In this document: positions 1-61,214 of the stretch, in pieces
How positions within the stretch are numbered: the stretch's first letter is position 1
Layout: every line of letters begins with the position of its first letter
Source: Chloroflexota bacterium
GTDB lineage: Bacteria; Chloroflexota; Limnocylindria; P2-11E
DNA: 64,000 nucleotides
Assembly: GCA_027310565.1 (NCBI GenBank)
Contig: DAIDAP010000027.1
Location: forward strand, 62,001-126,000
Reading direction: 5' to 3'
Program-made: the position numbers and the translations under genes
Notes under the pieces: generated by a model
Databases searched by the model: none
What the model saw: the letters and a program-made list of their open reading frames with translations, nothing else
Told to the model about the DNA's origin: nothing

Positions 1-277
1 CGTCGGGCACGCGGATGCCGACGACCATGCCGCGCACGGCGGTGCGCGTCCGCAGCGCGGCCGCCGACGGGAGGTCCGCGTCGGCGAGCGCGGCGCCGGT
101 CGAGACGACGCGCTCGACGCCGTCCTGGGCCCCGATGAGCTCCTGCTCCGCGCGCATGCGCCGCGCCGTCTCGTTCGTGTAGATGACGCGGCCGGTCGCG
201 TCCTGAACGATGACGCCGCAACCGACCGCGCCGTACGCGGCCGCGAACGCGGGATCGATCGACGCCTTCCCCGCCAC
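1..277 (-). CDS. PAS-domain signalling protein, N-terminal part (runs off the window)
   Basis: Reading the minus strand from a GTG at 277 gives an open frame to the window edge. The first residues (AGKASIDPAFAAAYGAVG) are followed by a PAS-like stretch with GVIVQDATGRVIYTNETA and RMRAEQEL, typical of the PAS core where a sensor asks whether input is bound. Output domain and full length lie outside the window, so the role (histidine kinase, GGDEF protein or other) is unknown. A -10-like TACGCT ends 7 bases before the GTG, as in many genes here. The same 17-base start region recurs exactly at the K+ channel gene at 48965. PAS assignment is from sequence pattern only. Confidence 0.6.
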   Translation of the reverse strand, partial: MAGKASIDPAFAAAYGAVGCGVIVQDATGRVIYTNETARRMRAEQELIGAQDGVERVVSTGAALADADLPSAAALRTRTAVRGMVVGIRVPD

Positions 278-412
278 GGCGCGAAGCGTAGTCGGTGACG
301 CTGCGGGCGTTCTCCCCCATGCGGGTAGCCCGCGGCGCCGCGTTCGTTGAGGGAGCCGTGCTCGTGCCGCTCATCGTGTCGACGGCGCTCGCGCTCAGGT
401 AGTGTCCGATGG

Positions 413-418
413 GATAAT
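413..418 (+). promoter_or_regulatory. -10 element of the tRNA-Gln promoter
   Basis: GATAAT lies 19 bases before the mature tRNA 5' end, a normal distance for a short 5' leader removed by RNase P. No convincing -35 hexamer was seen. Confidence 0.45.
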
Positions 419-436
419 CAACGAGTCGATCGCCAC

Positions 437-508
437 TGGGGAGTGGCCAAGCGGTAAGGCAGCTGACTCTGGATCAGCCAATCGGAGGTTCGAATCCTCC
501 CTCCCCAG
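437..508 (+). tRNA. tRNA-Gln (anticodon CTG)
   Basis: The cloverleaf can be folded by eye. Acceptor TGGGGAG (437-443) pairs with CTCCCCA (501-507), followed by discriminator G. The anticodon stem GCTGA/TCAGC encloses loop CTCTGGA with anticodon CTG. The T arm carries GGTTCGAATCC. The UGGGG acceptor start is usual for glutamine tRNAs. CCA is not fully encoded (GCA follows), so it would be added post-transcriptionally. The accessory toxin-antitoxin-like patch begins just downstream. Confidence 0.93.
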
Positions 509-803
509 CAGATTCGGCCCATCCTCACCGATCAAAGCCGACGATTCCCGGGCAATCTTTCGTGCGCGGTTCCGCGCCGCGCGACCTGCGCGGTTTCCCC
601 GCCTCAACCCACCGCCTGGGGTTCCCGAGAAGCGGTTTCCGGTGGCGCGTGTCGTCGCTGGCGATCTCCGGATGGCGAAAGCCGCGCGATCGTCCGCAGC
701 ACCCACTCGTAGCTGAGGCAGCGGTTCTCGTCGTACCAGAGATCCCGCAGGTAGTACTCGCCTACGGCGCCGTCGAGGACCGCCGCTTCGGCGCGTCGCG
801 TGA
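509..803. other. Gap between tRNA-Gln and the antitoxin-like gene; orphan frame on the minus strand
   Basis: No gene with a start codon can be supported. On the minus strand, a frame from about 803 down to a TGA at 604-606 reads like protein (for example GEYYLRDLWYDENRCLSYEW) but has no ATG, GTG or TTG, and begins in a different frame right at the stop of the antitoxin-like gene. It may be a decayed gene or chance. No terminator or repeat of the tRNA 3' end was recognised. Confidence 0.35.
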
Positions 804-1211
804 CTAGGCCGGCTGCGCGACGAGCTCCGCCTGTATCTGATCGAGGGTGGCGGAAAGCTGCGGCAGCCCGTACCGCGAAGCAAGTCGACCGAGCGAGACG
901 AGTGCGTCTTCGTTCTCCATGAGCGGGACGCGCTCGCGGAGGAAGTGCTCGAATACCTCGCTGACCGGAAGCCCGACCTCTCGTGCCGCCTCTTCGAGGC
1001 TGCGCCCTTGCTGGTAGAGCCGCACCGCGTCCTCGAGCCCAAGGACGCGAAGCCCTGCCGTGAGCGCAGTGCTCGCGGCCATCTGTTGCGTTGGGATCTC
1101 GCGACGGGCGCGGACGCGCGCGAGTTGGGTCTCCTGGTTCGCCGTCGTGCGCACCACAAGGGGAGCGCGCTGCGACGCACGCCGCGATTTGGCAGTGCCT
1201 TTTCCCTTCAC
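804..1211 (-). CDS. UPF0175-like antitoxin / small HTH protein
   Basis: The protein has 135 residues. The first 35 are basic and probably disordered (KGKGTAKSRRASQR). The middle contains LEDAVRLYQQGRSLEEAAREVGL followed by VFEHFLRERVPL, which matches the pattern of UPF0175 antitoxins (alpha-helical, HTH-like; known relatives pair with PIN-type DUF3368 toxins). The GTG start at 1211 has a strong Shine-Dalgarno AGGAGG seven bases upstream. A fragment resembling the C-terminal half of a DUF3368 protein lies immediately upstream on the same strand, which fits a broken toxin-antitoxin pair. The gene sits beside tRNA-Gln and a HigBA-like pair. Function is inferred from motif and context; UPF0175 membership is not certain. 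Confidence 0.6.
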   Translation of the reverse strand: MKGKGTAKSRRASQRAPLVVRTTANQETQLARVRARREIPTQQMAASTALTAGLRVLGLEDAVRLYQQGRSLEEAAREVGLPVSEVFEHFLRERVPLMENEDALVSLGRLASRYGLPQLSATLDQIQAELVAQPA

Positions 1212-1233
1212 CGCGTCACCTCCTTGTGTCGTG

Positions 1234-1479: not shown

Positions 1480-1541
1480 CTAGTCGCCTCGTCTCGGCTG
1501 CGATACGGCGAGCGAACTCGACCAGGACGTCAGACACGGTT

Positions 1542-1973: not shown

Positions 1974-2077
1974 AGTTTCACTCCTTGGCACGACAGAAGC
2001 GCCCGACCGCGCCTGCGCCCAGACCACAGACCGGCGGTCACGCCTCCCACGATAACACGAATGTGATAGCGGCAGCC

Positions 2078-2455: not shown

Positions 2456-2462
2456 GCCGCCC

Positions 2463-2879: not shown

Positions 2880-3179
2880 GAAGCGCCCACATGCAGCCGT
2901 GGTGCCAGCCGGCAGGGGTGAGACGGGACGGATACGGGGGGCGTCGGACGCTCGGGCTGGCTCGGCTTGGCGCCCCCTCCGTGGCCCTGGCCCCCGGTCG
3001 GTGCGACGGTGGGACGCGAAGGGCTGAGCCGAGGGACGGGCGGACGGTGCTCGCGAGCGCACTCGCGGCGCCGATCGCCGCGAACGTCGCGACCCGTCGG
3101 GCGGTCGTGACGCTGAACGCGCGGGCGCCGCGATCCATGACGCGGAGACGACGCGCGAAATGGTCGTAGTCTTCGGTCG
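2880..3179. other. 300-base intergenic region with the promoter of the aldo-keto reductase gene
   Basis: No coding frame convinces on either strand. The right end holds TAGTCT (3167-3172), 7 bases before the ATG of the next gene. The left end must hold the response-regulator promoter on the minus strand, which I could not pin down. Confidence 0.5.
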
Positions 3180-4094: not shown

Positions 4095-4960
4095 CGGCAC
4101 GCGGCTGGGTCCTCTTCGGCGCGATGGGCCTCATCTGGGGCATCCCGTACCTGCTCATCAAGGTCGCCGTGGCCGAGCTGGAGCCGGCCACCGTCGTGCT
4201 CGGCCGCACCGCGATCGGCGCGCTCCTGCTCCTGCCGATCGCCGTCGCGCGCACGGACCTGCGGGAGCTGCTCCCCCGCTGGCGGCTCCTCCTCCTCTAC
4301 ACGTTCGTCGAGATCGTCGGTCCGTGGCTGCTGCTCTCCCGGGCGGAGCAGCGGCTCTCGAGCTCGCTGTCGGGCCTGCTCATCGCCGGCGTTCCGCTCG
4401 TCGGTGCCCTCCTGGCATGGCTCACCGCGCACGACGACCGCCCCGACGCGCGCCGGCTCTTCGGCCTCGCGCTCGGCTTCGCCGGCGTCGCGCTCGTCGT
4501 GGGCTTCGACGTGGCGAGCGACGACGTCGTGGCCGTCGGCGAGATCGGCCTGGTGGTGCTCGGCTACGCGATCGGCGCGATGCTCATCGCGCGGTTCCGC
4601 GGCGTGCCGAGCCTGGCCGTGATCGCCGCCTCGCTCACCCTCGCCGCGCTCGTCTACCTTCCCGTCGGCGTCGCACAGCTCCCGGCGCGCGTGCCGTCCG
4701 CCGCCGCGCTCGGCGCGGTCGCGATGCTCGGTGTGGTGACCACCGCGCTCGCGTTCATCCTGTTCTTCGCGCTCATCGGCGAGGTCGGCCCGAACCGGGC
4801 GACCGTGATCACGTACGTGAACCCCGCGGTGGCCGTCGCGCTCGGCGTCGCCGTGCTCGGCGAGCCGCTCACCGCGACGATCGCGCTCGGCTTCGCGCTC
4901 ATCGCGCTCGGGTCGTACGTCGGGACGCGGCGCGCGCGAGCGGTGGCCGCCGCCGTCTAG
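4091..4960 (+). CDS. EamA/DMT-family transporter (10-TM drug/metabolite exporter)
   Basis: The protein has 289 residues from GTG 4091. It consists of two EamA repeats, each of about five membrane helices, beginning WVLFGAMGLIWGIPYLLIK, with the second repeat from about residue 150 (GLVVLGYAIGAMLIA) and the conserved NPAVAVALGVAVLGEPLT near the end. Family members export amino acids, nucleotides or drugs; substrate unknown. Start chosen by GTGA overlap with the aldo-keto reductase. Its TAG stop forms the first three bases of the -10-like TAGTGT of cofD, so the operon ends where the F420 genes begin. Confidence 0.9.
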   Translation: MTARGWVLFGAMGLIWGIPYLLIKVAVAELEPATVVLGRTAIGALLLLPIAVARTDLRELLPRWRLLLLYTFVEIVGPWLLLSRAEQRLSSSLSGLLIAGVPLVGALLAWLTAHDDRPDARRLFGLALGFAGVALVVGFDVASDDVVAVGEIGLVVLGYAIGAMLIARFRGVPSLAVIAASLTLAALVYLPVGVAQLPARVPSAAALGAVAMLGVVTTALAFILFFALIGEVGPNRATVITYVNPAVAVALGVAVLGEPLTATIALGFALIALGSYVGTRRARAVAAAV

Positions 4961-4970
4961 TGTGTTCCGC

Positions 4971-5900
4971 GTGAGCATCGCCGTGCTGTGCGGCGGCGTC
5001 GGCGCCGCGCGCTTCCTCGACGGCCTCGTCCGCGTCGTCGACCCCGCCGAGGTGACGGCGATCGTGAACGTCGCCGACGATGCGGTGTTCCACGGACTGC
5101 ACGTCTCGCCGGACGTCGACACGATCCTCTACACGCTCGCGGGCATGGTCGACGAGGGCACGGGCTGGGGCATCCGCGACGACACCCACGAGGTGCAGGC
5201 GGCGCTTGCGCGGCTGGGGCGCGAGACGTGGTTCCAGCTCGGGGACACCGACATCGCGACGCACCTCCACCGGACCGCGCTGCTCCGCGAGGGCCTTCCG
5301 CTCTCCGCGGTCACGGCGCGGCTCGCCGAGGCGTTCGGGGTGCGGGTGCGCGTCCTCCCCGCGTCCGACGAGCGCGAGGAGACCCATGTGCGCACCGACG
5401 ACGGGTGGCTCGCGTTCCAGGACTACTTCGTGCGGCGCCGGCAGCGGGACGCCGTGCGGGAGATCCGCTTCGACGGCCCGCTCACGCCGGGCCCCGGCGT
5501 CCGCGAGGCGGTCGCCGGCGCGCGCGTCGTGATCGTCGCGCCGAGCAATCCGCTCGTGAGCATCGGACCGATCCTCGCGATCACGGGACTGCGCGGCGCG
5601 CTCGCGGCGACGCGCGCGCCGGTCGTCGCGGTCTCCCCGATCGTGGGCGGCGAGGCGATCAAGGGCCCGGCGGCGGCGATGCTCGCGAGCCTCGGCCACG
5701 ACGTCTCCCCCGCGGGCGTCGCGCGGCTCTACGCGGACTTCCTCGACGTCATGGTGATCGACGAGCGCGACGCGGCGCTCGCCGGCGCGGTCGCCGCGAC
5801 CGGGGCACGGCCGGTCGCCGCGCCGACGATCATGCGCGACGCGGCGGCGAAGGAGCGGCTCGCGCGGGCCGTGCTCGACGCCGCGACGGCGCATGCCTGA
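4971..5900 (+). CDS. cofD: 2-phospho-L-lactate/PEP transferase of coenzyme F420 synthesis
   Basis: The protein has 309 residues. CofD/FbiA joins the activated three-carbon unit made by CofC to the deazaflavin Fo, giving F420-0 or its dehydro form in bacteria. The N-terminus carries LCGGVGAARFLDGL, the family's opening glycine-rich loop; NVADDAVFHGLHVSPDVDT and GDTDIATHLHRT are also characteristic, as is APSNPLVSIGPIL. GTG 4971 is preferred over the GTG at 4962 because TAGTGT (4958-4963) then lies 7 bases upstream, as at other genes here. It overlaps cofC by 8 bases. With cofC it shows that the organism makes F420. Confidence 0.93.
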   Translation: MSIAVLCGGVGAARFLDGLVRVVDPAEVTAIVNVADDAVFHGLHVSPDVDTILYTLAGMVDEGTGWGIRDDTHEVQAALARLGRETWFQLGDTDIATHLHRTALLREGLPLSAVTARLAEAFGVRVRVLPASDEREETHVRTDDGWLAFQDYFVRRRQRDAVREIRFDGPLTPGPGVREAVAGARVVIVAPSNPLVSIGPILAITGLRGALAATRAPVVAVSPIVGGEAIKGPAAAMLASLGHDVSPAGVARLYADFLDVMVIDERDAALAGAVAATGARPVAAPTIMRDAAAKERLARAVLDAATAHA

Positions 5901-7519: not shown

Positions 7520-7543
7520 GCGCGCCACGATAGTCCCCGCGCG

Positions 7544-8965: not shown

Positions 8966-9069
8966 GGCCCGAGTCTGACACCTGCTCTAGCCGATGCGCT
9001 GGAACACGATCGCGCCGCCGCGCTCGTACACGACGCGGTGGCGCGGATCACGCCTGGCTGGGTGACCCG

Positions 9070-10104: not shown

Positions 10105-10123
10105 ATCATGCCGCGTCGATACT
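10105..10123. promoter_or_regulatory. Back-to-back -10 elements for galK and the HExxH gene
   Basis: Minus strand CATGAT (10110-10105) is 6 bases before the galK GTG. Plus strand GATACT (10118-10123) is 6 bases before GTG 10130. Only 31 bases separate the two start codons, so both mRNAs can hardly have ribosome-binding leaders. Confidence 0.6.
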
Positions 10124-12353: not shown

Positions 12354-12424
12354 CTCCGGCGCGACGGTGAGCACGACGCTCCGCCGCAGTACCGGCGCCG
12401 TCGGCGCCTCGCTACTGTTGCCGC

Positions 12425-19311: not shown

Positions 19312-19320
19312 GGCTCCATC

Positions 19321-19335
19321 ATAGATCCCGTCTAT
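19321..19335. promoter_or_regulatory. ATAG-N7-CTAT operator at the LysR/TCA promoter
   Basis: A perfect inverted repeat (ATAGA-N5-TCTAT) of the LysR type. It overlaps the LysR -10 element (TATGAT, minus strand 19323-19318). A second half-site TCTATGG lies 30 bases on (19361-19367, the first at 19331-19337), next to the -35 position expected for the icd -10 element TACGAT (19382-19387). Confidence 0.6.
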
Positions 19336-28780: not shown

Positions 28781-28837
28781 CGCGCCGATTCTACGGGCGT
28801 TCCGCGTCAAGTCGAGCGCGGTCGGCCGACGACCACC

Positions 28838-36466: not shown

Positions 36467-36504
36467 CGGGCACCGTAGTGCGCCGACTGTCAGAAGACAA
36501 ATAC

Positions 36505-36537
36505 ATCGAGCCTCTCGATTCGATAGGACTAGGCTAT
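36505..36537. promoter_or_regulatory. Operator region between sdhC and the second LysR gene
   Basis: Two palindromes lie side by side. ATCGAG-N3-CTCGAT (36505-36519) is a perfect 15-base inverted repeat. ATAG-N7-CTAT (36523-36537) matches the operator at the other LysR gene. The second overlaps the LysR -10 element TAGGCT (36530-36535). Confidence 0.6.
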
Positions 36538-39009: not shown

Positions 39010-39020
39010 GGCGCGAGAGT

Positions 39021-39389
39021 CTACGAGGCGGTGCCTCCGCCGGCCGCGTCCGCGAGCGCCGGCAGCAGCCGATCGAGGTCGAAGGGCTTCGACACGACCC
39101 CGACCGCACCGATCCGACCCGCGTGCGTGCCCACGTTCGTCGCGGCGGAGAGGACGACGATCGGGATGCGCCACCGCTCGCGCATCCGCTGAGCGAAGGT
39201 CCAGCCGTCCATCACCGGCATCATCAGGTCGAGCACGATCAGGTCGGGCTCCCATCGCTCGAGCAGCGCGAGCCCCTCGCGTCCGTTCGCCGCGGGCCGT
39301 GCGTCCCAGCCCTCGTCGGCGAGCACCGTGCAGAGCAGCTCGCGGATGTCGGGGTCGTCGTCGATGACGAGCACGCGCGTCCCACTCAC
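39021..39389 (-). CDS. Single-domain response regulator
   Basis: The protein has 122 residues of receiver domain only. Acidic pocket in VLVIDDDPDIREL, phospho-acceptor in LIVLDLMMPVMDGW, signalling serine VVLSAATN and lysine VSKPFD. GTG 39389 follows CATCAT by 8 bases; the frame opens earlier at TTG 39434, but that would place the -10 inside the gene. It ends 11 bases before the cyclase start and may share its mRNA. Confidence 0.87.
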   Translation of the reverse strand: MSGTRVLVIDDDPDIRELLCTVLADEGWDARPAANGREGLALLERWEPDLIVLDLMMPVMDGWTFAQRMRERWRIPIVVLSAATNVGTHAGRIGAVGVVSKPFDLDRLLPALADAAGGGTAS

Positions 39390-39437
39390 CGGCGGCGATG
39401 ATGCCACGTCACGCGCGAGTGGCCGAGCCGGCAAGCC

Positions 39438-39929: not shown

Positions 39930-40018
39930 TTCTGCAGGAAGTAGAGCACGGCGATCATCACGACCGTCGTGACGAGCACCATGTAGAACTCGCCCGATTC
40001 GCCGACCTCTGTGATCAC
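39908..40018 (-). CDS. 36-aa single-helix protein of the bc operon
   Basis: Begins GTG 40018, one base after the cytochrome c stop, and reads an acidic N-terminus (ITEVGESGEF), one membrane helix (YMVLVTTVVMIAVLYFL) and a charged aromatic tail (QKWWTTYR). Small one-helix subunits (PetL/M/N, QcrM-like) are common in b6f and bc complexes, which makes this a good candidate subunit. Size, position and tight spacing support it; homology cannot be judged. Confidence 0.6.
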   Translation of the reverse strand: MITEVGESGEFYMVLVTTVVMIAVLYFLQKWWTTYR

Positions 40019-40019
40019 G

Positions 40020-41102
40020 TCACTTCCCCAGCCCTTCGAGATACGTCACGACGAGCCGGATCGAGGCCTCGTCGAGCTGGCCGCCGCTCTTGTCGAGCCA
40101 CACCGGCATGATGATGCCGGGCTTGATCGACGGCGCGTTCGCGACCCACTTGTAGAGCCAGTCCGGATCACCGGTGGCCTTCAGCGCCTTCAGCTGGTCG
40201 TTGAGCGGCCCCTCGATGCCGTACCTCGCGAGGTTGGGGGCGAGCGAGACGGTGCTCGGCTTGTTCGGGTCGAAGCTGTGGCAGCTCGCGCAGTACTGCT
40301 GCGCGATCACGTCGCCGGACGGCGGCGCGGGCGGCTGGCCGGGATCCGGGATGGTCGAAGGGCTGCCGTCGAGGCGCGATCGGATCGACACGATGTCCTG
40401 CCAGTCCGCCTCGCTCCCGCGCATGATGAACGCGACGAGCTGATTCACCTGCTCCGTGTTGAGCGGGCCGCCCTCGCTGTCGCCCCACGCCGGCATGGAG
40501 TAGTTGGGTGCGGGGTTCGCCTTGCCACGGGTGATCCGCAGGCGGATGAGCGCCTCGGTCTCCGCGAGCTTCTGCGGATCACCCGCGAGGTTGTCGTACC
40601 GGAAGTCGGGCTTGTTCAGCGGCTTCCCGGGGAGCGGCTTGTCGCCGACGCCGTTCTCGCCGTTCCCGAGGCCCAGGCGTCCGTGGCAGTTGAAGCAGAA
40701 GTTCGCGTAGAGGTTCTTGCCGCGCGCGATGGACGCTTCGAGCTGCCGCTCCGCGCCCTGGGCGCGCAGGTTCAGCGGGCCGGGAATGACCTGCAGGAGG
40801 AAGTAGCCGCCCACGAGGCCGAGCAGCGCGAACAGCATGACCGCACCGGCGGCGATCTTCTTGTCGAGGTTCGCCGAGACCTCGAGCGGATCGGGCGCCG
40901 CCGGGATCGGCGCGACCCAGTACGGCGTGGGCTGGGCGACCGTCGCGCCGGGCGCGTAGTGCTGCTCGAGGAGCTCGACCCCGGACGCGGGCTTCTCATC
41001 GGGCTCGACCTGCCGCTGGTGGTAGATGAGGTATCCGAAGAAGGCGATGAACAGCAGGAAGAGCACGATGCTGACGCCGGCGAGGATGAGATTGACGTCC
41101 AC
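40020..41102 (-). CDS. Membrane-anchored dihaem cytochrome c of the quinol oxidase complex
   Basis: The protein has 360 residues. Membrane helices at about 5-27 and 83-105, then two cytochrome c domains. Haem motifs C136-FNC-H140 (FCFNCHG) and C271-ASC-H275 (YCASCHS); likely axial methionines in YSMPAWGD and IIMPVWLD. It would take electrons from the Rieske protein, like QcrC of actinobacteria, but with two anchors. GTG 41102 starts one base after the Rieske stop. Confidence 0.9.
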   Translation of the reverse strand: MDVNLILAGVSIVLFLLFIAFFGYLIYHQRQVEPDEKPASGVELLEQHYAPGATVAQPTPYWVAPIPAAPDPLEVSANLDKKIAAGAVMLFALLGLVGGYFLLQVIPGPLNLRAQGAERQLEASIARGKNLYANFCFNCHGRLGLGNGENGVGDKPLPGKPLNKPDFRYDNLAGDPQKLAETEALIRLRITRGKANPAPNYSMPAWGDSEGGPLNTEQVNQLVAFIMRGSEADWQDIVSIRSRLDGSPSTIPDPGQPPAPPSGDVIAQQYCASCHSFDPNKPSTVSLAPNLARYGIEGPLNDQLKALKATGDPDWLYKWVANAPSIKPGIIMPVWLDKSGGQLDEASIRLVVTYLEGLGK

Positions 41103-41103
41103 G

Positions 41104-41661
41104 CTAGCCCTGGGCGTCCGTCACTTCGATGTGCTTGGGATTCCACTTGTTGTCCGAGCGGACGAGCAGGTTCAGCGGGTTGGTGTCGACGAGGAGAGCG
41201 CCGTTCACCTCGGAGACGTGGAACAGGTCGAGGCCGCGCGGCGCCGGCCCGCCGATGACGAGCGCGTAGTTCTTGTCGTAGAGCGAGCCGTGGCACGGGC
41301 AGTGGAACTGGTCCTCGGCCTTGTTCCAGGGCGTGGCGCAGCCGAGATGAGTGCACTTGCGGTACGCGGCCACGACCGCGCCCGGCGGATGGATGAGGAA
41401 GAACCGCCCCTGGGTGTTGAGGATCGGCTCGTCTTTGGTCTTCGCGAACGACGCGAGGACGTCGGCCTTCTTCCCCGCCGGCACCTTCGCGCCGAGACCC
41501 TCGATCTTGATCACGCGGAAGAACGGGACGAAGACGCCGAGCAGCTCCGCGGTCGCGAGGAGCGTCGCGGTGAGGAAGCCGACGCGCAGCAGCTGACGGC
41601 GCTTGATCCGGGAGACCAGGCCGCCGTGAACGATGGAGGTGTCCTCGTGTGGTCGGATCAT
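41104..41661 (-). CDS. Rieske 2Fe-2S protein
   Basis: The protein has 185 residues. A cytoplasmic N-terminus with basic residues ([12 protein letters not shown]), one membrane anchor (about 26-50), then the Rieske fold: CTHLGC and CPCHGSLYD bind the 2Fe-2S cluster. It moves electrons from menaquinol to the cytochrome c encoded next. The twin-arginine export motif is only approximate (SRIKRRQLL). ATG 41661 begins one base after the previous stop. Confidence 0.94.
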
Positions 41662-41662
41662 G

Positions 41663-42502
41663 TCACCCTCCCGGTGGCGGTGCGAAGCACTGATGGGTCG
41701 CCGGAAGCGCCCACGGGGCGTACAGGTCCATGCCGGGGCCGCGCATCGACGTCCCCACGACGGTGAGCACGAGGAACGTCACGACGAATCCCGTCCAGAT
41801 GGCGATCATCCACTCGCGCGTGCCGGCGCCGAAGAGGCGCTTGCACAGCCAGACCAGCAGCAGCGGGAGGGCGATCATCACGGCGATCGGGATGACGTAG
41901 TTCGGGATGAGCTCGCGGCCGCCGGGGAAGTACTGGCTCGCGAACTCCGCGTACCCCGGCCAGCCGGTCTTCACGCCGGTGACGGGATCGGTCACGCGCC
42001 GGTCCATCTTGATGAACGCATCGAGCCCGATGAGGAACGGCACGAGGACGCCCGTGAAGATCGCGGCGAGGATCGCGCACTTCTTGCCGACCTCGTTCGT
42101 GAACCAGCGCCCGACGCCCACGCGCTCCCGGTCGATGTACGGGATCGCGGCCATGAACACCAGCCATGCCGTCGGCACGACGACGCCGGCGAGGCCCTTG
42201 TCCATGTGCAGCAGGAGCTCCTGCAGGTTGAGCAGGTACCACGGCGCCTTCGAGGGGTTCGGTGTGCAGTCGAACGTCGCGTGATCCTGCAGCGGCGCGT
42301 TGAACAGCGCGGCGATGGCGAAGAGGCCGATCGACCAGATCATCGCCGCGATGAACTCGATGACCAGCAGGTGCGGCCAGACCATCGCGGTGTCCTCGAC
42401 GCGCTTGTCGACACGGACGACGCTGTCCTGCCGCACGAACGCGAGCAGCCGCAGGCGCTTCTCCTGCCCCGGGAACGGCTGAGGTCCGCGTGGAGCGGTC
42501 AT
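41663..42502 (-). CDS. Cytochrome b C-terminal subunit (subunit IV-like)
   Basis: The protein has 279 residues. It corresponds to the C-terminal half of cytochrome b (PetD-like) with extra helices: [14 protein letters not shown] resembles the PEWY-type Qo loop region (here P-x-WY), followed by [15 protein letters not shown] and three more helices (about 130-155, 195-215, 225-250). The split b/IV arrangement is that of b6f and many menaquinol complexes. ATG 42502 overlaps the cytochrome b stop (ATGA). Confidence 0.85.
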
Positions 42503-43230
42503 AGCGGGCCGCTGATGCCTCCGTCCTTGCGGATGCGCCAGAAGTGGATGGCGATGAGGAAGCCCGTCGCCAGCGGTAAGGCGACGACGTGGAGCACGTA
42601 GAAGCGCAGGAGGGCGTTCGGCCCGAGCTGGTATCCGCCGAAGATGAGGAACGAGATCTCGTTGCCGATGGCGGGCGTGGCCTGCGCGATGTTGTAGCCG
42701 ACGGTGACCGCCCACAGCGCGAGCTGGTCCCACGGGAGCAGGTACCCGGTGTACGAGAGCAGGATCGTGAAGAGGAAGAGGAGCGTCCCGACGACCCAGT
42801 TGAACTCGCGCGGCGGCTTGTACGACCCCGTGTAGAACACGCGGACCATGTGCAGGAAGACGGTGATGACCATGCCGTGCGCCGCCCAGCGGTGCATGTT
42901 GCGGAGCAGCTGGCCGAACACGACCACCGTCTCGAGGTCCTTGATGTCCGAGTACGCCCACTCCGTCGTCGGGCGGTAGTAGAACATCAGCAGCGTCCCC
43001 GTGAGCGTGAGCACGAGGAAGAGGAAGAACGAGAGCCCGCCCATGCACCACGTGTAGGGGATCGCGAGCGCGTGGCGCCGGACCTTCACCGGGTGCAGGT
43101 GCAGGAACACGTTGGTGAAGACCGCGAGCGACTGGTTCTTGCGGGAGTCGGGGTAGCCGTGCCGGAAGAGCGACCGCCAGAGCGGCCCCGTCTTCACGCG
43201 CTGCCAGACCTGGCCGGGGATATCGAGCAT
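42499..43230 (-). CDS. Cytochrome b N-terminal subunit (b6-type)
   Basis: The protein has 243 residues and four helices carrying two b haems. Haem histidines appear in [14 protein letters not shown] and FLHMVRVF (helix B) and [10 protein letters not shown] and IAIHFWR (helix D). [14 protein letters not shown] is the conserved cd segment. Together with subunit IV, Rieske and cytochrome c it makes a menaquinol:cytochrome c reductase. It begins 3 bases after the FAD/iron-sulfur gene, so that gene belongs to the operon. Confidence 0.94.
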
Positions 43231-43233
43231 CGT

Positions 43234-45261
43234 CTAGTGCACGGCCTCCCGTTCCTTTTCGGTCGCTGGGCCGTGGCCATTGTGGCCGTTCCGGCCGTTC
43301 CCGTTCAGCCGGCCGCCGGCGAGCGGCTTGTGTCCGGCGGCGAGGCGCGGGTCGTACATCGGCAGCGGGCGGATCGCCTTGCGCGCGCCGACGGTGAGGT
43401 CGAGGTGGATCTCGTCGTCGATCGACTCCTTCGGGAGCGCCCTCCCGACGGCCGGCGTCACCGTGCCGTAGCGGTTCATGGTGATCGCGTCGGTCGGGCA
43501 GCGGATGACGCAGAGCGCGCAGCGGATGCACGCGGTCTCGTCGAGGTAGAACGCGACGCCCTGCTCCCACCGCTTGGCGTTCCCGACCGCCGGGATCGCG
43601 CCGTCGTCGACGATGTCGCTCATGTCGACCATGTGGATGACGTCCATCGGGCAGACGTCGACGCAGCCGCCGCAGATGATGCAGAGCTCGCCGATGATCT
43701 CGATGTTGAAGTTGCACTTGAGGCAGCGGTCGCCCTCGGCGATCGCCTGCGCCTCGGTGTAGCCCTGGTTCACCTCGAGGAACAGCCCGCGCCGATCCTT
43801 CCTGCCGAGCTTGGGCATCTCCTGCCGCGGGATGCGGTCGTAGTCGACGGACATGTTGTGGTAGACGCGGGCGAGCTCGCCGGCCCCGGCGATCTGCCCG
43901 ACGTTGTCCGGCGTGCTCGAGCGCCGCAGCGTCACGATCTCGTGGTACTCGGGGACGTTCACCGCCTGCGCGATCGGGTCGAGGAAGCGCGCGACCTGCT
44001 GCGCCGCGCCGCGGCCCTCGGCGACCGCCTCGATGATCGTCGTCGGCCCGGTGCGGTAGTCGCCGGCCATGAAGATCTTCGGGACGACGGTCTGGTAGGT
44101 CTCGCCGTCGACCTTCACGTCGCGCCAGCGCTTCACGCGGAGCTCGGGGAACTCGGCGAGGAACGTGACGTCGGGGGCCTGGCCGAGCGCGAGCAGGACC
44201 GTGTCGCACCCGATCTCGAACTCCGACCCCGCGATGGGCTCCGGGCTGCGCCGGCCGCTGCGGTCGGGCGCGCCGAGCATGTTGCGCACGAAGCGCACGC
44301 CGCGCACGTGGCCGCGCTCGTCGGCCAGGACCTCGACCGGCGAGGCAAGGTAGACGAACCGCATGCCCTCGCGCTCGGTCTCGCCGAGCTCCTCCTCGTC
44401 CACCACCATCTCGTCGCGCGACCGGCGGTAGACGATGGAGACCTCGTCCGCGCCGAGCCGCCACGACGTGGACGCGCAGTCCATCGCGGTGTAGCCGCCG
44501 CCGAGGACGACGACGCGCTTGCCGACCTCGAGCGGCCGGCCGCGATACGCGCGCTCGAGGAAGACGATGCCCGCCATGACGCCGTCGGCGTCCTCGCCCG
44601 GGATCCCCGGGTAGTTCGGCTCGAAGCAGCCCGCGGTCACGAGCACCGCGTCGTGCTCGTCGTGGAGCCGACGGAGCGTCACGTCGCGGCCCACCAGCGT
44701 CGAGAGCCGCAGCTCGACGTTCTCGTTGACGATCCCGTTGATGTCCCGGTCGATGACCTCTCGCGGCAGGCGGAACGGCGGCACCCCCGCGAGCGCGGTG
44801 CCGCCGGCCTGGTCGAGCGCGTCGTAGACGGTCACGCCGAACCCGAGCTTCGCGAGGTCGCTCGCGGCGGCGAGCCCCGCGCACCCGGCGCCGACGATGG
44901 CGACCCTCCCCTGCGGCGGGCCGAACACGGGCGCTGCTGGTTGGGTGTACGGACGCCCGTCGACGGTGACGTTCGCGTGGGTCCAGTCGGAGAGGAACTT
45001 CTTCACGTAGCGGATGGAGAGGGGTTTGTCGACCTCCTTGCGGCGGCAGGCCGTCTCGCAGGGGGCCGCGCAGACGCTGCCGCAGATCGAGGCCATCGGG
45101 TTCGGGTCGAGCGCGAGCTCCCAGGCCTTCTCGAACTCGCCGGCGGCGGCCAGGTTGAGGTAGCCGCGGCAGTTCGTCCGGACCGGGCAGGCTTCCTGGC
45201 AGGGGATGTTCTCCTGGTACCAGGAGGGGCCGACCTCCACGACCTGGTAGAGCTCTCTCAC
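43234..45261 (-). CDS. GltD-like FAD/NAD(P) oxidoreductase with extra 4Fe-4S domains, heading the bc operon
   Basis: The protein has 675 residues. Residues 1-110 are the 2x[4Fe-4S] N-terminal domain of glutamate synthase beta-type proteins (C21, C25, C31; then CGSVCAAPCETAC). FAD loop VAIVGAGCAGLAAA near 120; NAD(P) loop VVVLGGGYTAMDCAS near 265; IFMAGDYRTGPTTIIEAVAEG closes the FAD fold. The C-terminal part adds CLKC, CIICGGCVDVCP and CIRCALCVIRCP, two further clusters. It probably passes electrons between NAD(P)H or ferredoxin and a membrane partner. GTG 45261; the ribosome site is in a hairpin. Final residues are Asn/Gly/His-rich. Confidence 0.88.
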   Translation of the reverse strand: MRELYQVVEVGPSWYQENIPCQEACPVRTNCRGYLNLAAAGEFEKAWELALDPNPMASICGSVCAAPCETACRRKEVDKPLSIRYVKKFLSDWTHANVTVDGRPYTQPAAPVFGPPQGRVAIVGAGCAGLAAASDLAKLGFGVTVYDALDQAGGTALAGVPPFRLPREVIDRDINGIVNENVELRLSTLVGRDVTLRRLHDEHDAVLVTAGCFEPNYPGIPGEDADGVMAGIVFLERAYRGRPLEVGKRVVVLGGGYTAMDCASTSWRLGADEVSIVYRRSRDEMVVDEEELGETEREGMRFVYLASPVEVLADERGHVRGVRFVRNMLGAPDRSGRRSPEPIAGSEFEIGCDTVLLALGQAPDVTFLAEFPELRVKRWRDVKVDGETYQTVVPKIFMAGDYRTGPTTIIEAVAEGRGAAQQVARFLDPIAQAVNVPEYHEIVTLRRSSTPDNVGQIAGAGELARVYHNMSVDYDRIPRQEMPKLGRKDRRGLFLEVNQGYTEAQAIAEGDRCLKCNFNIEIIGELCIICGGCVDVCPMDVIHMVDMSDIVDDGAIPAVGNAKRWEQGVAFYLDETACIRCALCVIRCPTDAITMNRYGTVTPAVGRALPKESIDDEIHLDLTVGARKAIRPLPMYDPRLAAGHKPLAGGRLNGNGRNGHNGHGPATEKEREAVH

Positions 45262-46357: not shown

Positions 46358-46899
46358 GCCGACGCGCGCCCCGCGGCGAGCCACGCCTCGGCATCGCCCG
46401 GGCGCGTGAAGCGCAGCTTCGCCACGTGCGCGTACCGCGGCTCGGCGAAGAGACGCGCGCAGTCGCGCCGGCGCCCGCGGTACGTCCGGAGCGCCCACCA
46501 GAAGAGCGACTCGCGGGAGAAGAACGCGTCCCGCACGCTCTCACGGTTGCCGGTCCCGGGCCACAGCTCCCGCCGGTCGCGGATGCGCGCGATCGTCCGC
46601 CGCCACAGCCGCCGGTAGATGACGAGGAGCGAGAAGTCGAGCCACACGATCGTGTCCGCACGGGCCCACACGATCTGCCGCGCCCCGCGGCCGCCGTAGC
46701 TGCCGTCGACCACCCAGCCGTCGCCCGCGGTCACGTCGCGCACGCGGGCCTGGAGCGTCTCGGCGTCGGCCAGGGTCCGGCGCCGTCCCCACGCGAGCGC
46801 GTCGAGCTCGACGCGCGGCACGCCGAGGATCGTCGCCAGCTCGCCCGCGAAGGCCGTCTTCCCGGTCCCCGTCGAGCCGACCACGGAAACGCGCTTCAG
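46318..46899 (-). CDS. P-loop kinase (FlaR/adenylate-kinase-like) with a CTG start
   Basis: The protein has 193 residues. N-terminus KRVSVVGSTGTGKTAFAGELATIL contains a Walker A (GSTGTGKT); further on VELDALAWG, WVVDGSYGG, DTIVWLDFSLLVIYRRLWRRT. This is the pattern of DNA topology modulation (FlaR-like) kinases, function poorly known. CTG 46899 gives the natural first beta strand and lies exactly 6 bases after TATCGT. The next option, a GTG six codons later, would start inside that strand. Divergent from sucC. Confidence 0.8.
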   Translation of the reverse strand: MKRVSVVGSTGTGKTAFAGELATILGVPRVELDALAWGRRRTLADAETLQARVRDVTAGDGWVVDGSYGGRGARQIVWARADTIVWLDFSLLVIYRRLWRRTIARIRDRRELWPGTGNRESVRDAFFSRESLFWWALRTYRGRRRDCARLFAEPRYAHVAKLRFTRPGDAEAWLAAGRASAQGPSTSRSSATS

Positions 46900-46905
46900 G
46901 TGCCG

Positions 46906-46915
46906 ACGATATCCT
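46906..46915. promoter_or_regulatory. Overlapping divergent -10 elements (kinase and sucC)
   Basis: TATCGT on the minus strand (46911-46906) and TATCCT on the plus strand (46910-46915) share two bases. The first is 6 bases before CTG 46899, the second 11 bases before the sucC GTG. Only one polymerase can bind at a time. Confidence 0.5.
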
Positions 46916-46926
46916 CGCCTCGTCCC

Positions 46927-48072
46927 GTGAAGCTCCACGAATACCAGGCGAAGCAGCTGCTCGCGCGCGCCGGCATCCCCATCCCCGAGGGCCGCGTCGC
47001 GACGACGCCGGAGGAGGCCGAGGCCGCGGCGCGGGCCGTCGGCGGCAGGGTGGCCGTGAAGGCGCAGGTGCACGTCGGCGGCCGCGGGAAGGCGGGCGGC
47101 ATCAAGCTCGCCGGCTCCGCGAACGAGGCGCGCGAGGCGGCGGGCGCGATCCTCCACATGCAGATCAAGGGGCTGCGCGTCCGCAGGGTCTACGTCGAGC
47201 GCGCCGCGAGCGTCGCGAAGGAGCTGTACCTCGGCATCACGCTCGACCGCGACCGCCGCCGCCCGGTGGTCATGCTCTCGACCGTCGGCGGCATGGACAT
47301 CGAGGAGGTCGCCGCGTCCTCGCCGGAGAAGATCGCGCGGGGCTGGCCGGACCCGCTCTTCGGCCTGCTCCCCTTCCAGGCGCGCGCGCTCTGCTTCGAC
47401 GCGGGCGTTCCCGCCGAGCAGCGGAGCGCCGTCGCCGACGCGCTGGGGCGGCTGTACGGCGTGTACGCGCGGAGCGACGCGATGCTCGTCGAGATCAACC
47501 CGCTGTTCATCCAGACGGACGGATCGATCCTCGCGGGCGACGCCAAGCTCGACGTCGACGACAACGCGCTCTTCCGGCAGCCGGAGCTGCGCGAGTGGAA
47601 GGAGGTGAGCCCGGACGAGGAGGTGGAGGAGCGCGCCCGCGCGCTCGGCTTCAGCTACGTGCAGCTCGACGGCGACGTCGGGATCATCGGGAACGGCGCG
47701 GGCCTGGTCATGGGCACGCTCGACGCGGTCCGCAACGCCGGCGGACGCGCCGCGAACTTCCTCGACGTCGGCGGCGGCGCCAAGGAGTCCGTGGTGAAGG
47801 CGGCGCTCGAGATCGTGCTGGCCAACGCGAAGGTGAAGAGCGTGCTCATCAACATCTTCGGCGGCATCACGCGCGGGGACGAGGTCGCGAAGGGGATCCT
47901 CTCCGTGATCGCGCGGCACCCTCCGGCGGTGCCGCTCGTCATCCGCCTGTCGGGGACCGAGGCCGAGGCCGGCCGCAGGCTCCTCGAGGGCGCGCCGCTC
48001 GTCTCGCGCGCGACGATGGACGAGGCCGCGAGCGAGGCCGTGCGGCTGGCGGCGACGGGGGCGGAGCCGTGA
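46927..48072 (+). CDS. sucC: Succinyl-CoA synthetase beta subunit
   Basis: The protein has 381 residues. ATP-grasp subunit that couples succinyl-CoA to nucleotide triphosphate synthesis. Start LHEYQAKQLLARAGIPIPEG, VKAQVHVGGRGKAGG, VEINPLFIQTDG with metal ligands, LDVGGGAKESVV and INIFGGITRGDEVA. The phosphate loop is intact. GTGA overlap with sucD. The N-terminal LHEYQAK is diagnostic. Confidence 0.97.
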   Translation: MKLHEYQAKQLLARAGIPIPEGRVATTPEEAEAAARAVGGRVAVKAQVHVGGRGKAGGIKLAGSANEAREAAGAILHMQIKGLRVRRVYVERAASVAKELYLGITLDRDRRRPVVMLSTVGGMDIEEVAASSPEKIARGWPDPLFGLLPFQARALCFDAGVPAEQRSAVADALGRLYGVYARSDAMLVEINPLFIQTDGSILAGDAKLDVDDNALFRQPELREWKEVSPDEEVEERARALGFSYVQLDGDVGIIGNGAGLVMGTLDAVRNAGGRAANFLDVGGGAKESVVKAALEIVLANAKVKSVLINIFGGITRGDEVAKGILSVIARHPPAVPLVIRLSGTEAEAGRRLLEGAPLVSRATMDEAASEAVRLAATGAEP

Positions 48073-48941: not shown

Positions 48942-48977
48942 TCACGTCCGCCGCGGCGCGCGTGTACGCTTCGCGCC

Positions 48978-54034: not shown

Positions 54035-54053
54035 TGGGTGCGGAGTATCGCGG

Positions 54054-55260: not shown

Positions 55261-55261
55261 C

Positions 55262-58012: not shown

Positions 58013-58024
58013 CGAGCGGGCGCC

Positions 58025-58981
58025 TCACGGATCGAAGCAGGCGAGCGCCGCGTCCCACGCGAGCTCCGACGCGACCACGCCCAGGCTCACCTCGTCGAGC
58101 GCGTCGCCGGCGACCTTCTGCGTCGACACCGCGAAGAGGATGTCGCCGTCCCAGCGCGTGTTGAAGGGCTGGATCGAGCGCGCCATGGACGAGTGCACCT
58201 GGCGCGCGAGCGAGCGGAGCTGGAGCGGATCGAGACGCTGGTCCGTCGCGACGAGCGTGAGGTTGGTGTTCTGCGTCACGCCGCGCGCGCGTGCGTCGAC
58301 CGGATCGTAGGCGCCGGTCCGCTCGATCATGCGCTCCGCACGCAGGCGCTCGCCCGTCCGCGGGTCGCGGTTGCCGCGGACGACGTTCCCGGCACGGTCG
58401 ACGATCGCGCCGTACGCGTTGATCACCGTGAAGACCGCGACGCGGGTCGGCCCCACCCGGCGGAACGCGCCGCCCTGACCCGCCAGCTCCGCGGTCGCGC
58501 CATGGCCGGCCGTGGCGGACGCTCCGGCGCCGTGCGGCCCGAGCGGGAAGCGCCCGGGACGGAGCGCGCGTACGGCGGCGCGGCCGAGCTCCTTGTCCGG
58601 GTAGATGGCGTTGTCGCGCCGGCCGAAGTCGAAGATGATGGCGCCGGCGACGAGCGCGATGTCCATCCACTTCGTCGAGTACCCGCGTCGCGCGAAGAGC
58701 TCCGCGGCGACGCCGGTGGAGGCCTCGAGGCCGTAGAGCGACCCGCCGGCGAAGCAGACCGCGTTGATGACGGTGAGGTGCTCGCCGTTGATGCCGGGCG
58801 ACCCGCCACGCACGTCGATGTGCATGCTCGCGGCCTCGGGGAAGTGGAACACCGTGCAGCCCGTCGGACCCTCGGCGTACTCGGCGACGCCGATCTCGAG
58901 CCCCGGGAAGTCCACGTCGAGCCGGCGCGCCGCGGCGACCTCGGTGCGCGGGACCGGGCGGACGGTGTCGTTGCCGATCAC
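58025..58981 (-). CDS. P1-family (DmpA/NylC-like) Ntn hydrolase
   Basis: The protein has 318 residues. Conserved GCTVFHFPEAASMHIDVRGGSPG at the start, AVCFAGGSLYGLEASTGV, GAGASATAGHGAT, then VTQNTNLTLVATDQRL, where the Asn-Thr bond resembles the self-cleavage site of NylC-type members; the new N-terminal Thr would be the nucleophile. Known members are beta-aminopeptidases and nylon-oligomer hydrolases. GTG 58981 overlaps the M20 stop (GTGA). Last gene of an amide-hydrolase operon. Confidence 0.88.
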   Translation of the reverse strand: MIGNDTVRPVPRTEVAAARRLDVDFPGLEIGVAEYAEGPTGCTVFHFPEAASMHIDVRGGSPGINGEHLTVINAVCFAGGSLYGLEASTGVAAELFARRGYSTKWMDIALVAGAIIFDFGRRDNAIYPDKELGRAAVRALRPGRFPLGPHGAGASATAGHGATAELAGQGGAFRRVGPTRVAVFTVINAYGAIVDRAGNVVRGNRDPRTGERLRAERMIERTGAYDPVDARARGVTQNTNLTLVATDQRLDPLQLRSLARQVHSSMARSIQPFNTRWDGDILFAVSTQKVAGDALDEVSLGVVASELAWDAALACFDP

Positions 58982-60093
58982 GCGGGCAGCGAGGCGCGGA
59001 TCTTCGCGTCGGTCGCGATCCGCACCGCGACGGACGCGAGCATCTCCGCCGTGGTCAGCGCGTTCGCGTGCGCGAGGTCGGTCGCGGAGGCCTCGCGCAT
59101 CGCGTGCGAGTGGCCGGGCACGGGCGTGGCGCTGACCGGGAAGCCGATGTAGCCGGCCGGCGCCACCTGCGACACGTTGCCGAAGTCGGTGGACGCGAGA
59201 GTGAGACCCTCGCTCACGTACGGGATCCGGCGGCGCTCGAGCTCCTGCCTCAGCAGCCCGTCGATGCGCCCGTTCGGCTTCACCGGGGCGTACAGGCGCA
59301 TGCTCTCGTCGACCTCGACCGTCGTGCCGGTCTGCATCGCGGCGCCCTCGGCCATGCGGTGGAACGTGCGGTCCATCTCCTCGAGGACGTCCAGCGACGC
59401 CGCGCGCAGACCGAACTCGCACTCGGCGAGGTCGGGGATGACGTTCGACGCGGCGCCGCCCTTCGTGATGATGCCGTGCACGCGCGTGTCCGCCGGTAGG
59501 TGCTGGCGCCACCCGTCCACCGCGAGGAACAGGCGGATCGCGCCGGAGAGCGCGTTGCGCCCCTCGTGCGGCGAGTACGCCGCGTGCGACGCGACGCCGT
59601 GGAACCGGACGACACGTCCGGCGATGCCGAGGCTCGACCGTCCGAACTCCCACTCGTTCCCGCCCGGGTGCGACGAGAGCACAGCGACGGAGTCGCGGAA
59701 CACCCCGGCGTCGATGAGGTCGATCTTCCCGCCGCCGCTCTCCTCCGCGGGCGTGCCGATGAGCTCGACGCCCACCCCCAGGTCCTTCGCGCGCTGCGCC
59801 GCGAGGAGGAACGCGCCGACGTTCGACATCGCGATGAGGTTGTGCCCGCAGGCGTGGCCGATCCCGGGCAGCGCGTCGTACTCGGCGAGCAGCGCGACCG
59901 CCGGGCCCGCCGGCCCGACCCGCGCGCGGAAGGCGGTCTCGAGGCCGCCGAGCCGCCGCTCGACCTCGTGGCCGTGCCGCAGCAGCAGCGTCGCGATGCT
60001 CGCCACCGCCTGCCGCTCCTGGTACGCGAGCTCCGGTGCGCCGTGGATCGCGCGCGACAGCACGATGAGGTCGTCACGAAGGCCGCCGCTCAT
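58978..60093 (-). CDS. M20-family amidohydrolase, second of the operon
   Basis: The protein has 371 residues. LLAEYDALPGIGHACGHNLIA, GTPAEESGGGKIDL, HGVASHAAYSPHEG, STDFGNVSQVAP and VPGHSHAMR. It shares the residue pattern of its neighbour at 60090 throughout (for example KPNGRIDGLLRQELE aligns with TANTVIGDAIADELR), so the two are tandem duplicates. ATG 60093 overlaps the upstream stop. Confidence 0.92.
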   Translation of the reverse strand: MSGGLRDDLIVLSRAIHGAPELAYQERQAVASIATLLLRHGHEVERRLGGLETAFRARVGPAGPAVALLAEYDALPGIGHACGHNLIAMSNVGAFLLAAQRAKDLGVGVELIGTPAEESGGGKIDLIDAGVFRDSVAVLSSHPGGNEWEFGRSSLGIAGRVVRFHGVASHAAYSPHEGRNALSGAIRLFLAVDGWRQHLPADTRVHGIITKGGAASNVIPDLAECEFGLRAASLDVLEEMDRTFHRMAEGAAMQTGTTVEVDESMRLYAPVKPNGRIDGLLRQELERRRIPYVSEGLTLASTDFGNVSQVAPAGYIGFPVSATPVPGHSHAMREASATDLAHANALTTAEMLASVAVRIATDAKIRASLPA

Positions 60094-61214
60094 GCGGCGA
60101 TCCTCCTGCGGAGGTCGGCATCGGTCGCGATCCGCCGCGCCGTCGCCGCGAGCGCCTCGATCGTGATGAGCGCGCTCCGATGGGCGAGCTCGCTGACGCA
60201 GGCCGCGCGCATCTCGTCGGAGTGCCCGGGGATCGCGCGCTCGCTCACCGGAAAGCGGATCCAGTCGGTCGGGATCCGCTGCGACACGTTCCCGAGGTCG
60301 GTCGACGCGGTCACGAGCGTGCCGCGCTCGGGCTCGACGCCGCGCGCGCGCAGCTCGTCGGCGATCGCGTCGCCGATGACCGTGTTCGCGGTGACCGGCA
60401 GGTACCGCCGGAGGTAGTCGCTGATCTCGACGGTCGTGGCCGTCTGGAGCGCGGCGCCCTGCGCGACGTCGGTGAAGGCCGCGACCATGGCGTCGAGGGT
60501 CTCGCGGTCCTTGGCGCGCAGGCCGAAGCGCGCCTCGGCGCGCACCGGGACGACGTTCACGGCGTCGCCGCCGTGATCGATGATCCCGTGCACCCGCGCA
60601 TCCGGCGGGAGCTGCTGCCGCCATCCATCGATCCCGGTGAAGAGCCGGATGAGGCCGTTCAGCGCGTTGCGGCCCTTCTCCGGCGACGATCCGGCGTGCG
60701 CGGCCTGGCCGCGGTAGATGACCCGCTTGCCCACGATGCCGAGACCGGTGCCGCTCACGACCCACGCGCCCTGCGCCGAGGGATGCGTCGACAGGACGTA
60801 TCCGACGTCGTCGAACACGCCGGCGTCGAGCAGGTCGATCTTGCCACCGCCGTCCTCCTCGGCGGGCGTCCCGATGATCTCGACGGCGACCTCGAGGCCG
60901 CTCGGGTCGGCCGTGGCGGCCAGGAACGCGCCGACGTTCGTCATCGCGATGAGGTTGTGCCCGCAGCCGTGACCGAGGCCCGCGAGCGCGTCGTACTCGG
61001 CGAGCAGGGCGATCGACGGCCCCGCGGGCCCGACGCGCGCGCGGAACGCCGTCTCGAGCCCCCCGACGCCGGTCGAGACGTCGTGACCGTGCCCGGTGAG
61101 CAGATCGCGGATGCGGCCGCAAGCGCGACGCTCTTGATACGCGACCTCCGGGTCGGCGTGGATCTCGGAAGACAGCGTGAGGAGTTCCGTGCGCAGCGCG
61201 TCGGGGAGCGTCAC
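60090..61214 (-). CDS. M20-family amidohydrolase, first of the operon
   Basis: The protein has 374 residues. LLAEYDALAGLGHGCGHNLIA, GTPAEEDGGGKIDLLDAGVF, RGQAAHAGSSPEKGRNALNG, STDLGNVSQRIPTDWI, IPGHSDEMR. Zinc-dependent amide hydrolase of the AbgB-like group. GTG 61214 follows CAGTAT by 8 bases; that element overlaps the rho -10 on the other strand. Order: M20, M20, P1 hydrolase, all by 4-base overlaps. Confidence 0.92.
   Translation of the reverse strand: MTLPDALRTELLTLSSEIHADPEVAYQERRACGRIRDLLTGHGHDVSTGVGGLETAFRARVGPAGPSIALLAEYDALAGLGHGCGHNLIAMTNVGAFLAATADPSGLEVAVEIIGTPAEEDGGGKIDLLDAGVFDDVGYVLSTHPSAQGAWVVSGTGLGIVGKRVIYRGQAAHAGSSPEKGRNALNGLIRLFTGIDGWRQQLPPDARVHGIIDHGGDAVNVVPVRAEARFGLRAKDRETLDAMVAAFTDVAQGAALQTATTVEISDYLRRYLPVTANTVIGDAIADELRARGVEPERGTLVTASTDLGNVSQRIPTDWIRFPVSERAIPGHSDEMRAACVSELAHRSALITIEALAATARRIATDADLRRRIAA

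Follow-up and report, generated by a model that had tools for sequence, protein, structure and literature searches.

Leaderless transcription from promoters that consist of a bare −10 element is known in Actinobacteria and Deinococcota and, less often, in Chloroflexi. A TANNNT hexamer situated some 12 bp ahead of the start codon has been described as a mark of leaderless genes (Zheng et al., 2011; PMC3160421); the same account gives leaderless genes for four of 12 Chloroflexi genomes, with a mean of 4.7%, and signals of the form TAtaaT in genomes of medium guanine-plus-cytosine (GC) content. Mapped transcription starts of Mycobacterium tuberculosis are reported to carry the same motif and no −35 element (Cortes et al., 2013; PMC3898074), and a 2025 paper on Deinococcus-Thermus presents tests of the motif in Deinococcus (PMC12340547). 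Here we analyse hexamers of this type in a stretch of 64,000 nucleotides (the window) from a Chloroflexota genome (GCA_027310565.1, class Limnocylindria in the GTDB lineage, contig DAIDAP010000027.1, positions 62,001 to 126,000), for which a preliminary description had listed about twenty hexamer-spacer-start strings. Leaderless transcription from bare −10 promoters, including elements shared by closely spaced divergent genes, is very probably the best explanation of the data presented below.

The hexamer, its distance from the start codon, the lack of a −35 consensus and the use of Shine-Dalgarno sequences by operon-distal genes are alike here and in the leaderless systems as described in PMC3160421, PMC3898074 and PMC12340547. 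The basic finding, genes marked as leaderless by TANNNT, is thus known biology in another lineage. In comparison with the Chloroflexi genomes as reported by Zheng et al. (PMC3160421), the present lineage is GC-rich and the share of marked genes is larger (102 of 502 non-internal genes for TANNNT alone, the denominators of the two studies being different).

For divergent genes with overlapping −10 elements, the nearest precedent that we found is the csoR-cueA divergon of Bradyrhizobium liaoningense, described as a bidirectional promoter in which the −10 elements partly overlap and the mapped csoR mRNA is leaderless (PMC5057107). According to that description it differs from the arrangement treated here, as only one side is leaderless (the cueA leader has 42 bases), −35 elements are reported and a repressor box lies in the overlap. 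Bidirectional promoters of Escherichia coli are reported to share a −10 element, with divergent transcription start sites 10–23 bp apart in five cases and with genes that are often functionally linked (Warman et al., 2026; PMC12825309). In contrast to the E. coli promoters presented there, both start codons lie at the predicted transcription start sites here, no −35 consensus was seen, and the whole intergenic region would consist of the shared −10 element and two discriminators. Double leaderlessness of a divergent pair is described for prpD/Rv1129c of M. tuberculosis, where closely juxtaposed divergent promoters are said to be common (Cortes et al., 2013; PMC3898074), and a 108-bp region with overlapping divergent promoters, the second of them leaderless, has been reported (PMC5648196). 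What we infer to be new is a shared promoter that is leaderless in both directions, and an AUC start codon. A limited literature search revealed neither a leaderless AUC start nor a family-conserved spacer of about 20 bp with leaderless genes in both directions; doubly leaderless cases may already be described by Warman et al. (2021) in their work on bidirectional promoters.

A TANNNT hexamer marks about a fifth of the genes able to begin a transcription unit

The window is part of a genome of 2.79 Mb in 38 contigs. Our sample of 864 kb comprised the window and 800 kb from other stretches of the same genome. Gene starts were taken from a simple codon-usage gene finder, written for this purpose and blind to the sequence upstream of the start. 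It predicted 860 genes, of which 854 were kept; genes were dropped if they had no canonical start, no neighbour upstream or fewer than 80 bases of upstream sequence. Operon membership was assigned from gene spacing alone, giving 352 internal and 502 non-internal genes (226 with an upstream neighbour on the opposite strand, 162 with a same-strand gap of at least 60 bp and 114 with a gap of 16–59 bp). Control windows at four offsets further upstream, together with shuffled sequences, served as background. Nx denotes x bases between the end of the hexamer and the start codon.

TANNNT at N6–9 precedes 102 of the 502 non-internal genes (shuffle mean 7.1, maximum 18 in 1000 shuffles). This is 14 times the shuffle mean, and corresponds to about a fifth of the genes able to begin a transcription unit. 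The count is 7/39 within the window (mean 0.5, maximum 4 in 2000) and 95/463 outside it (mean 6.6). Genes with an opposite-strand upstream neighbour carry the hexamer in 57 of 226 cases (4.2 in control windows), those with a same-strand gap of at least 60 bp in 20 of 162 (1.3) and those with a gap of 16–59 bp in 25 of 114 (1.7). Among internal genes it was found in 13 of 352 (0.54). Enrichment over shuffled sequences and over internal genes, the check named in the preliminary description, is present in the 864 kb. Its statement that operon-internal genes lack the motif and overlap instead is largely right: 234 of the 352 overlap the preceding gene, while the 13 internal genes with TANNNT do not conform.

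The forms of the hexamer were compared by their first base. For the non-internal genes at N6–9, observed and expected numbers are 102 and 7.1 for TANNNT, 31 and 15.2 for CANNNT, 34 and 15.6 for GANNNT, and 8 and 7.3 for AANNNT. GANNNT is enriched in internal genes too (23/352, expected 10.5), an excess to which the Shine-Dalgarno-like GAGGT may contribute.

In a test that did not depend on the chosen start, all TANNNT hexamers close to the 5′ end of a non-internal gene were collected, and the codon that follows after 6 or 7 bases was read. This codon was ATG or GTG at 80 of 191 in-frame positions as against 4 of 334 out-of-frame positions (Fisher p ~1e-35). The same frame lock was seen in relatives, with 36/82 against 1/138 positions in the genomes G001, G002 and G013, and 44/118 against 5/190 in G027, G033 and G034.

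Shine-Dalgarno cores were found in 4 of the 102 non-internal TANNNT genes, which is control level (6/102 in the upstream control), as compared with 112 of the 400 other non-internal genes (control 43/400). The 3′ end of the 16S rRNA, identified by eye, reads GGATCACCTCCTTTCT, so that a normal anti-Shine-Dalgarno sequence is present. A −35 element accompanying the hexamers was considered and dropped, as no motif stood out among the 102 TANNNT genes when judged without a formal background. Upstream of the 16S gene (locus L022, 1316–1345), we noted by eye TTGACG-18-TATGAT; a −35-like box, which the leaderless promoters do not show, thus occurs in at least this one place.

The preliminary description had read the hexamer as the −10 element of a leaderless mRNA. 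This reading is supported by a spacing peak at N6–7 (67 of the 102 TANNNT genes, the other 35 lying at N8–9), by the frame lock, by the scarcity of Shine-Dalgarno cores, by the rarity of the motif in operon-internal genes and by the conservation of several orthologous starts described below; from these we infer a 5′ end at the start codon. The absence of a −35 consensus, the sharing of hexamers by divergent pairs and the recognition that the signal is of a known kind go beyond that description. As we picture it, the hexamers would be sigma70-type −10 elements (TANNNT, sometimes CANNNT or GANNNT), RNA polymerase would initiate at the start codon or one to three bases away from it, and the leaderless mRNA would be translated without a Shine-Dalgarno sequence. 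Operon-internal genes, mostly overlapping, would more often rely on such a sequence.

A variant of this scheme, in which the hexamer is a −10 element but the mRNA carries a few leader bases or has several transcription starts, is a real though minority possibility. For the 35 hexamers at N8–9, initiation 6–7 bases downstream would leave 1–3 leader bases, and the start codons differ with spacing: GTG is favoured at N6–7 (39 GTG, 28 ATG), while ATG is relatively more frequent at N8–9 (23 ATG, 11 GTG; p = 0.02). Strictly leaderless transcription accounts better for the main peak at N6–7 and for the control level of Shine-Dalgarno cores.

Conservation of the hexamer in relatives

Of four orthologous starts that could be tested, three keep the hexamer while its letters change; the fourth, that of a GHMP kinase, does not. 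The most extensive case is a metallo-beta-lactamase/beta-CASP gene outside the window (contig C4). Among 25 loci examined, there were 21 distinct upstream sequences from four families of the host's class, and 19 of these have NANNNT at N6–9 (1–6 of 21 in control windows; shuffle mean 2.5, maximum 9), with hexamers as different as CAGAAT, CATGAT, CATACT and CACCAT, among others. For the window genes cofD (start 4971) and the sodium/phosphate (Na/Pi) cotransporter (start 54034), 14 loci each were examined and partial or paralogous matches excluded. Of 13 cofD orthologues, eight have TANNNT at N6–7 ahead of a start codon, and a hexamer at N6–9 is found in 11 of 14 Na/Pi orthologues, the window's own gene being included in both counts. 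Such conservation speaks for the GATACT and CANNNT forms being real in at least some genes. The TrkA channel gene (start 48978) has no close orthologue among the sampled relatives, the best showing 43% identity.

In two of the Na/Pi loci (L244 and L245), TTG stands behind TACGAT-N9 and TACGCT-N8, which suggests leaderless TTG starts in these two relatives.

First genes with TANNNT at N6–9 were also counted in six relatives, giving 11/32, 15/50, 1/6, 12/46, 2/28 and 6/36; the control windows gave, in the same order, 0.46, 0.69, 0, 1.54, 0.77 and 0.77.

Compact divergent pairs and the glcD/glcF junction

Divergent pairs with start codons only 15–32 bp apart make up 11 of the 113 divergent pairs in our sample, and just two pairs are closer. 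In two genomes of the same genus, 4/16 and 4/25 pairs have this spacing; in G013, from the same family, it is 0/3. Twenty divergent spacers of 15–34 bp were collected from the host's family. NANNNT at N5–10 was found on both strands in 16 of them and not in the other four (shuffle mean 2.1, maximum 7 in 2000), and TANNNT on both strands in seven (mean 0.12, maximum 2). Not all of these hexamers overlap: at the window pair 10098/10130 there are two separate ones (10105–10110 and 10118–10123).

The clearest case is the junction of glcD and glcF, whose products are a flavin adenine dinucleotide (FAD)-linked oxidase and an iron-sulphur (Fe-S) protein with CCG domain. Such proteins are usually subunits of one enzyme. 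The set examined, drawn from relatives together with the host genome, comprised 22 distinct junctions. Overlapping hexamers pointing both ways occur in 21 of them, in spacers of 14–23 bp; L088 has none. The overlap is five bases (TANNNTA) in 18 junctions, four in one and two in two, the other phases being those of L050, L054 and L095. TANNNT is present on both strands in 14 of the 15 distinct spacer sequences (shuffle mean 0.14, maximum 3 in 3000). The hexamer-to-start spacing is 6–11 on both sides, and the inner letters vary (TAGGATA, TAGCATA, TACGATA).

Divergent genes of the host's family that are 14–32 bp apart thus appear to be able to have opposed, often overlapping −10 elements for two leaderless starts. 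One pseudo-symmetric element, often TANNNTA, would serve both genes from a spacer of about 14–32 bp, with RNA polymerase bound in one orientation or the other, so that the two directions would compete.

On the glcF side the predicted start codon is unusual. An in-frame ATC lies at TANNNT-N6 or -N7 in 18 of the 22 loci, or in 20 if looser hexamers are allowed; the exceptions are GTG in the host genome and ATG in L095. From the upstream stop codon to the first cluster cysteine of glcF, there is no ATG, GTG, TTG or CTG at all in L046 and L084, and CTG is the only NTG codon in L047, L048 and L086, so that five of 22 loci lack an in-frame ATG, GTG or TTG. The glcF frame of L086 ends early, 118 codons past the cysteine. 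On this evidence AUC is probably the glcF start in most of the family, on a leaderless mRNA.

It is rather unlikely that glcF starts elsewhere, at a canonical codon upstream in glcD, at a GTN further downstream, just ahead of the first cluster cysteine, or at CTG. The remaining 17 loci do contain some in-frame ATG, GTG or TTG, mostly far upstream within glcD, and in seven of the 22 a GTG lies at position −24 relative to the cysteine. Against such starts stand the loci with no NTG codon or with CTG alone. Further, the distance from the −10 element to ATC is 6 or 7 depending on the locus while ATC stays in the glcF frame, which argues against read-through from upstream.

The idea that non-canonical leaderless starts are widespread in the host genome found no support and was rejected. 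The codon at N6/7 is ATC in five and CTG in one of 191 in-frame cases, and ATC in three and CTG in none of 334 out-of-frame cases. Such starts are also rare in relatives (in-frame ATC 1/82 and 2/118). The gene infC is a known case of a rare non-NUG start codon. Rare AUC, AUU and AUA start codons are mentioned in PMC9094748; compared with those mentioned there, the glcF AUC is predicted to lie on a leaderless mRNA and is kept in most sampled members of one family.

An alternative for the compact spacers is that the symmetric TANNNTA is a transcription-factor operator and not a shared promoter. The element is pseudo-palindromic and conserved in the family at glcD/glcF, and at csoR-cueA a repressor box is described as overlapping the overlapping −10 elements (PMC5057107). 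We consider this improbable: the spacing to both glc starts is held at 6–11, the same geometry recurs at other pairs, and the varying inner letters and changing overlap phase are expected of two −10 elements rather than of one operator.

Several observations weigh against leaderless transcription from bare and shared −10 elements. All gene starts rest on our own simple gene finder, and the starts at the glc junctions were selected with knowledge of the motif (N5–11 being allowed for glcD), which favours the count. None of 55 divergent pairs in three genomes from other families of the class is 15–32 bp apart (host's family against other families, p = 0.004). The hexamer is missing from its expected place in 5/13 cofD and 3/14 Na/Pi orthologues, and in two of the eight positive cofD cases the start precedes the aligned one by several codons. 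For the GHMP kinase start (10098), no more than 3 of 18 rows have a hexamer before ATG or GTG. Relative G033 shows a weak peak (2/28). Finally, the gene order of the pair 10098/10130 is kept in three relatives from the genus (L146–L148) but its hexamers are not, none being found at the aligned GHMP kinase start. A conserved two-hexamer arrangement at this pair was rejected.

With these points included, we lean towards the view that one Chloroflexota family keeps a minimal divergent switch, in which a glcD-glcF spacer of 14–23 bp, consisting of hardly more than two overlapping −10 elements, would give rise to two leaderless mRNAs, one starting with AUG or GUG and the other, in most of the members sampled, with AUC. 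If this is true, a leaderless AUC is used by bacterial ribosomes to start translation of a conserved metabolic gene, and the orientation of the polymerase could by itself apportion expression between the GlcD and GlcF subunits. Compact divergent pairs would offer a minimal natural test of the choice of RNA polymerase orientation at one −10 element, and glcF makes initiation at a 5′-terminal AUC directly testable.

The eighteen sites of the window

All 18 strings listed in the preliminary description are present at their places, as confirmed by rechecking the hexamer coordinates. Read as −10 elements, they are as follows.

285–290, minus strand: −10 element TACGCT, N7 to GTG 277; the codon model has the same start
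3167–3172, plus strand: −10 element TAGTCT, N7 to ATG 3180, aldo/keto reductase
4958–4963, plus strand: −10 element TAGTGT, N7 to GTG 4971, CofD; orthologues tested
7527–7532, minus strand: −10 element TATCGT, N7 to GTG 7519; the codon model's start, 7528, falls within the hexamer
8972–8977, minus strand: candidate −10 element CAGACT, N6 to TTG 8965; about half of CANNNT matches are expected by chance
10105–10110, minus strand: candidate −10 element CATGAT, N6 to GTG 10098, GHMP kinase; forms a divergent pair with 10130
10118–10123, plus strand: candidate −10 element GATACT, N6 to GTG 10130; divergent spacer of 31 bp
12413–12418, plus strand: −10 element TACTGT, N6 to ATG 12425, M20 peptidase
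19318–19323, minus strand: −10 element TATGAT, N6 to GTG 19311, LysR; HTH_1 from residue 3
28788–28793, minus strand: −10 element TAGAAT, N7 to ATG 28780, penicillinase-repressor family
36472–36477, minus strand: candidate −10 element TACGGT, N5 to ATG 36466; N5 is outside the peak
36530–36535, plus strand: −10 element TAGGCT, N6 to GTG 36542, LysR; HTH_1 from residue 4 of the GTG version
39018–39023, minus strand: −10 element TAGACT, N8 to ATG 39009, cyclase domain; a same-strand gene lies close by on either side
39398–39403, minus strand: candidate −10 element CATCAT, N8 to GTG 39389, response regulator; the model start differs
46906–46911, minus strand: TATCGT, N6 to the doubtful CTG 46899, or further upstream of GTG 46884
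48965–48970, plus strand: −10 element TACGCT, N7 to GTG 48978, TrkA-type K+ channel
54044–54049, minus strand: −10 element GATACT, N9 to GTG 54034, Na/Pi cotransporter; orthologues tested
61223–61228, minus strand: candidate −10 element CAGTAT, N8 to GTG 61214, M20 peptidase

The codon model independently picks the same start at 13 of the 18 sites and differs at 4971, 7519, 36542, 39389 and 46899. At 4971, 7519 and 36542, the model places the start within the hexamer or immediately next to it, and the start of the preliminary description therefore fits better if the hexamer is a promoter. GTG 4971 is additionally favoured by orthologues, and the TAGGCT at 36530–36535 speaks against ATG 36536, which abuts it. 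The CTG start proposed at 46899 found no support, as CTG occurs at N6/7 in 1/191 in-frame and 0/334 out-of-frame cases. The model genes at the starts 4971, 7519 and 39009 fall into the internal class. With leaderless starts, gene callers that score Shine-Dalgarno sequences can misplace starts in this lineage, errors that may be put right with the aid of the hexamer, as at 4971 and 36542.

The looser NANNNT at N5–9 precedes 15 of the 39 non-internal genes of the window (shuffle mean 3.9, maximum 13), which means that about four chance matches are expected there, mainly of the CA and GA forms. That the whole list is noise, some twenty cases picked from 64 kb with a loose pattern whose CA and GA forms reach only about twice the background, can be dismissed almost entirely, as 102 TANNNT genes against a shuffle maximum of 18 and the frame lock rule out a chance origin for TANNNT, while some single CA or GA cases may still be chance.

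Other features of the window and the host

In the 42-bp divergent spacer 46884–46927 (plus-strand start GTG 46927), TATCGT on the minus strand overlaps TATCCT on the plus strand. With one protein of the host genome as query, 32 named loci were obtained. The 13 closest (74–86% identity) are all from Chloroflexi/Chloroflexota metagenome bins; the remaining 19 (26–31%) are from 16 Chloroflexi and three Proteobacteria bins. A tRNA-Gln (CTG anticodon) at 437–509 on the plus strand is the sole tRNA reported by ARAGORN in the window. The GC content dips to 0.677 in the 4-kb bin at 40001–44000, the other bins ranging from 0.701 to 0.755.

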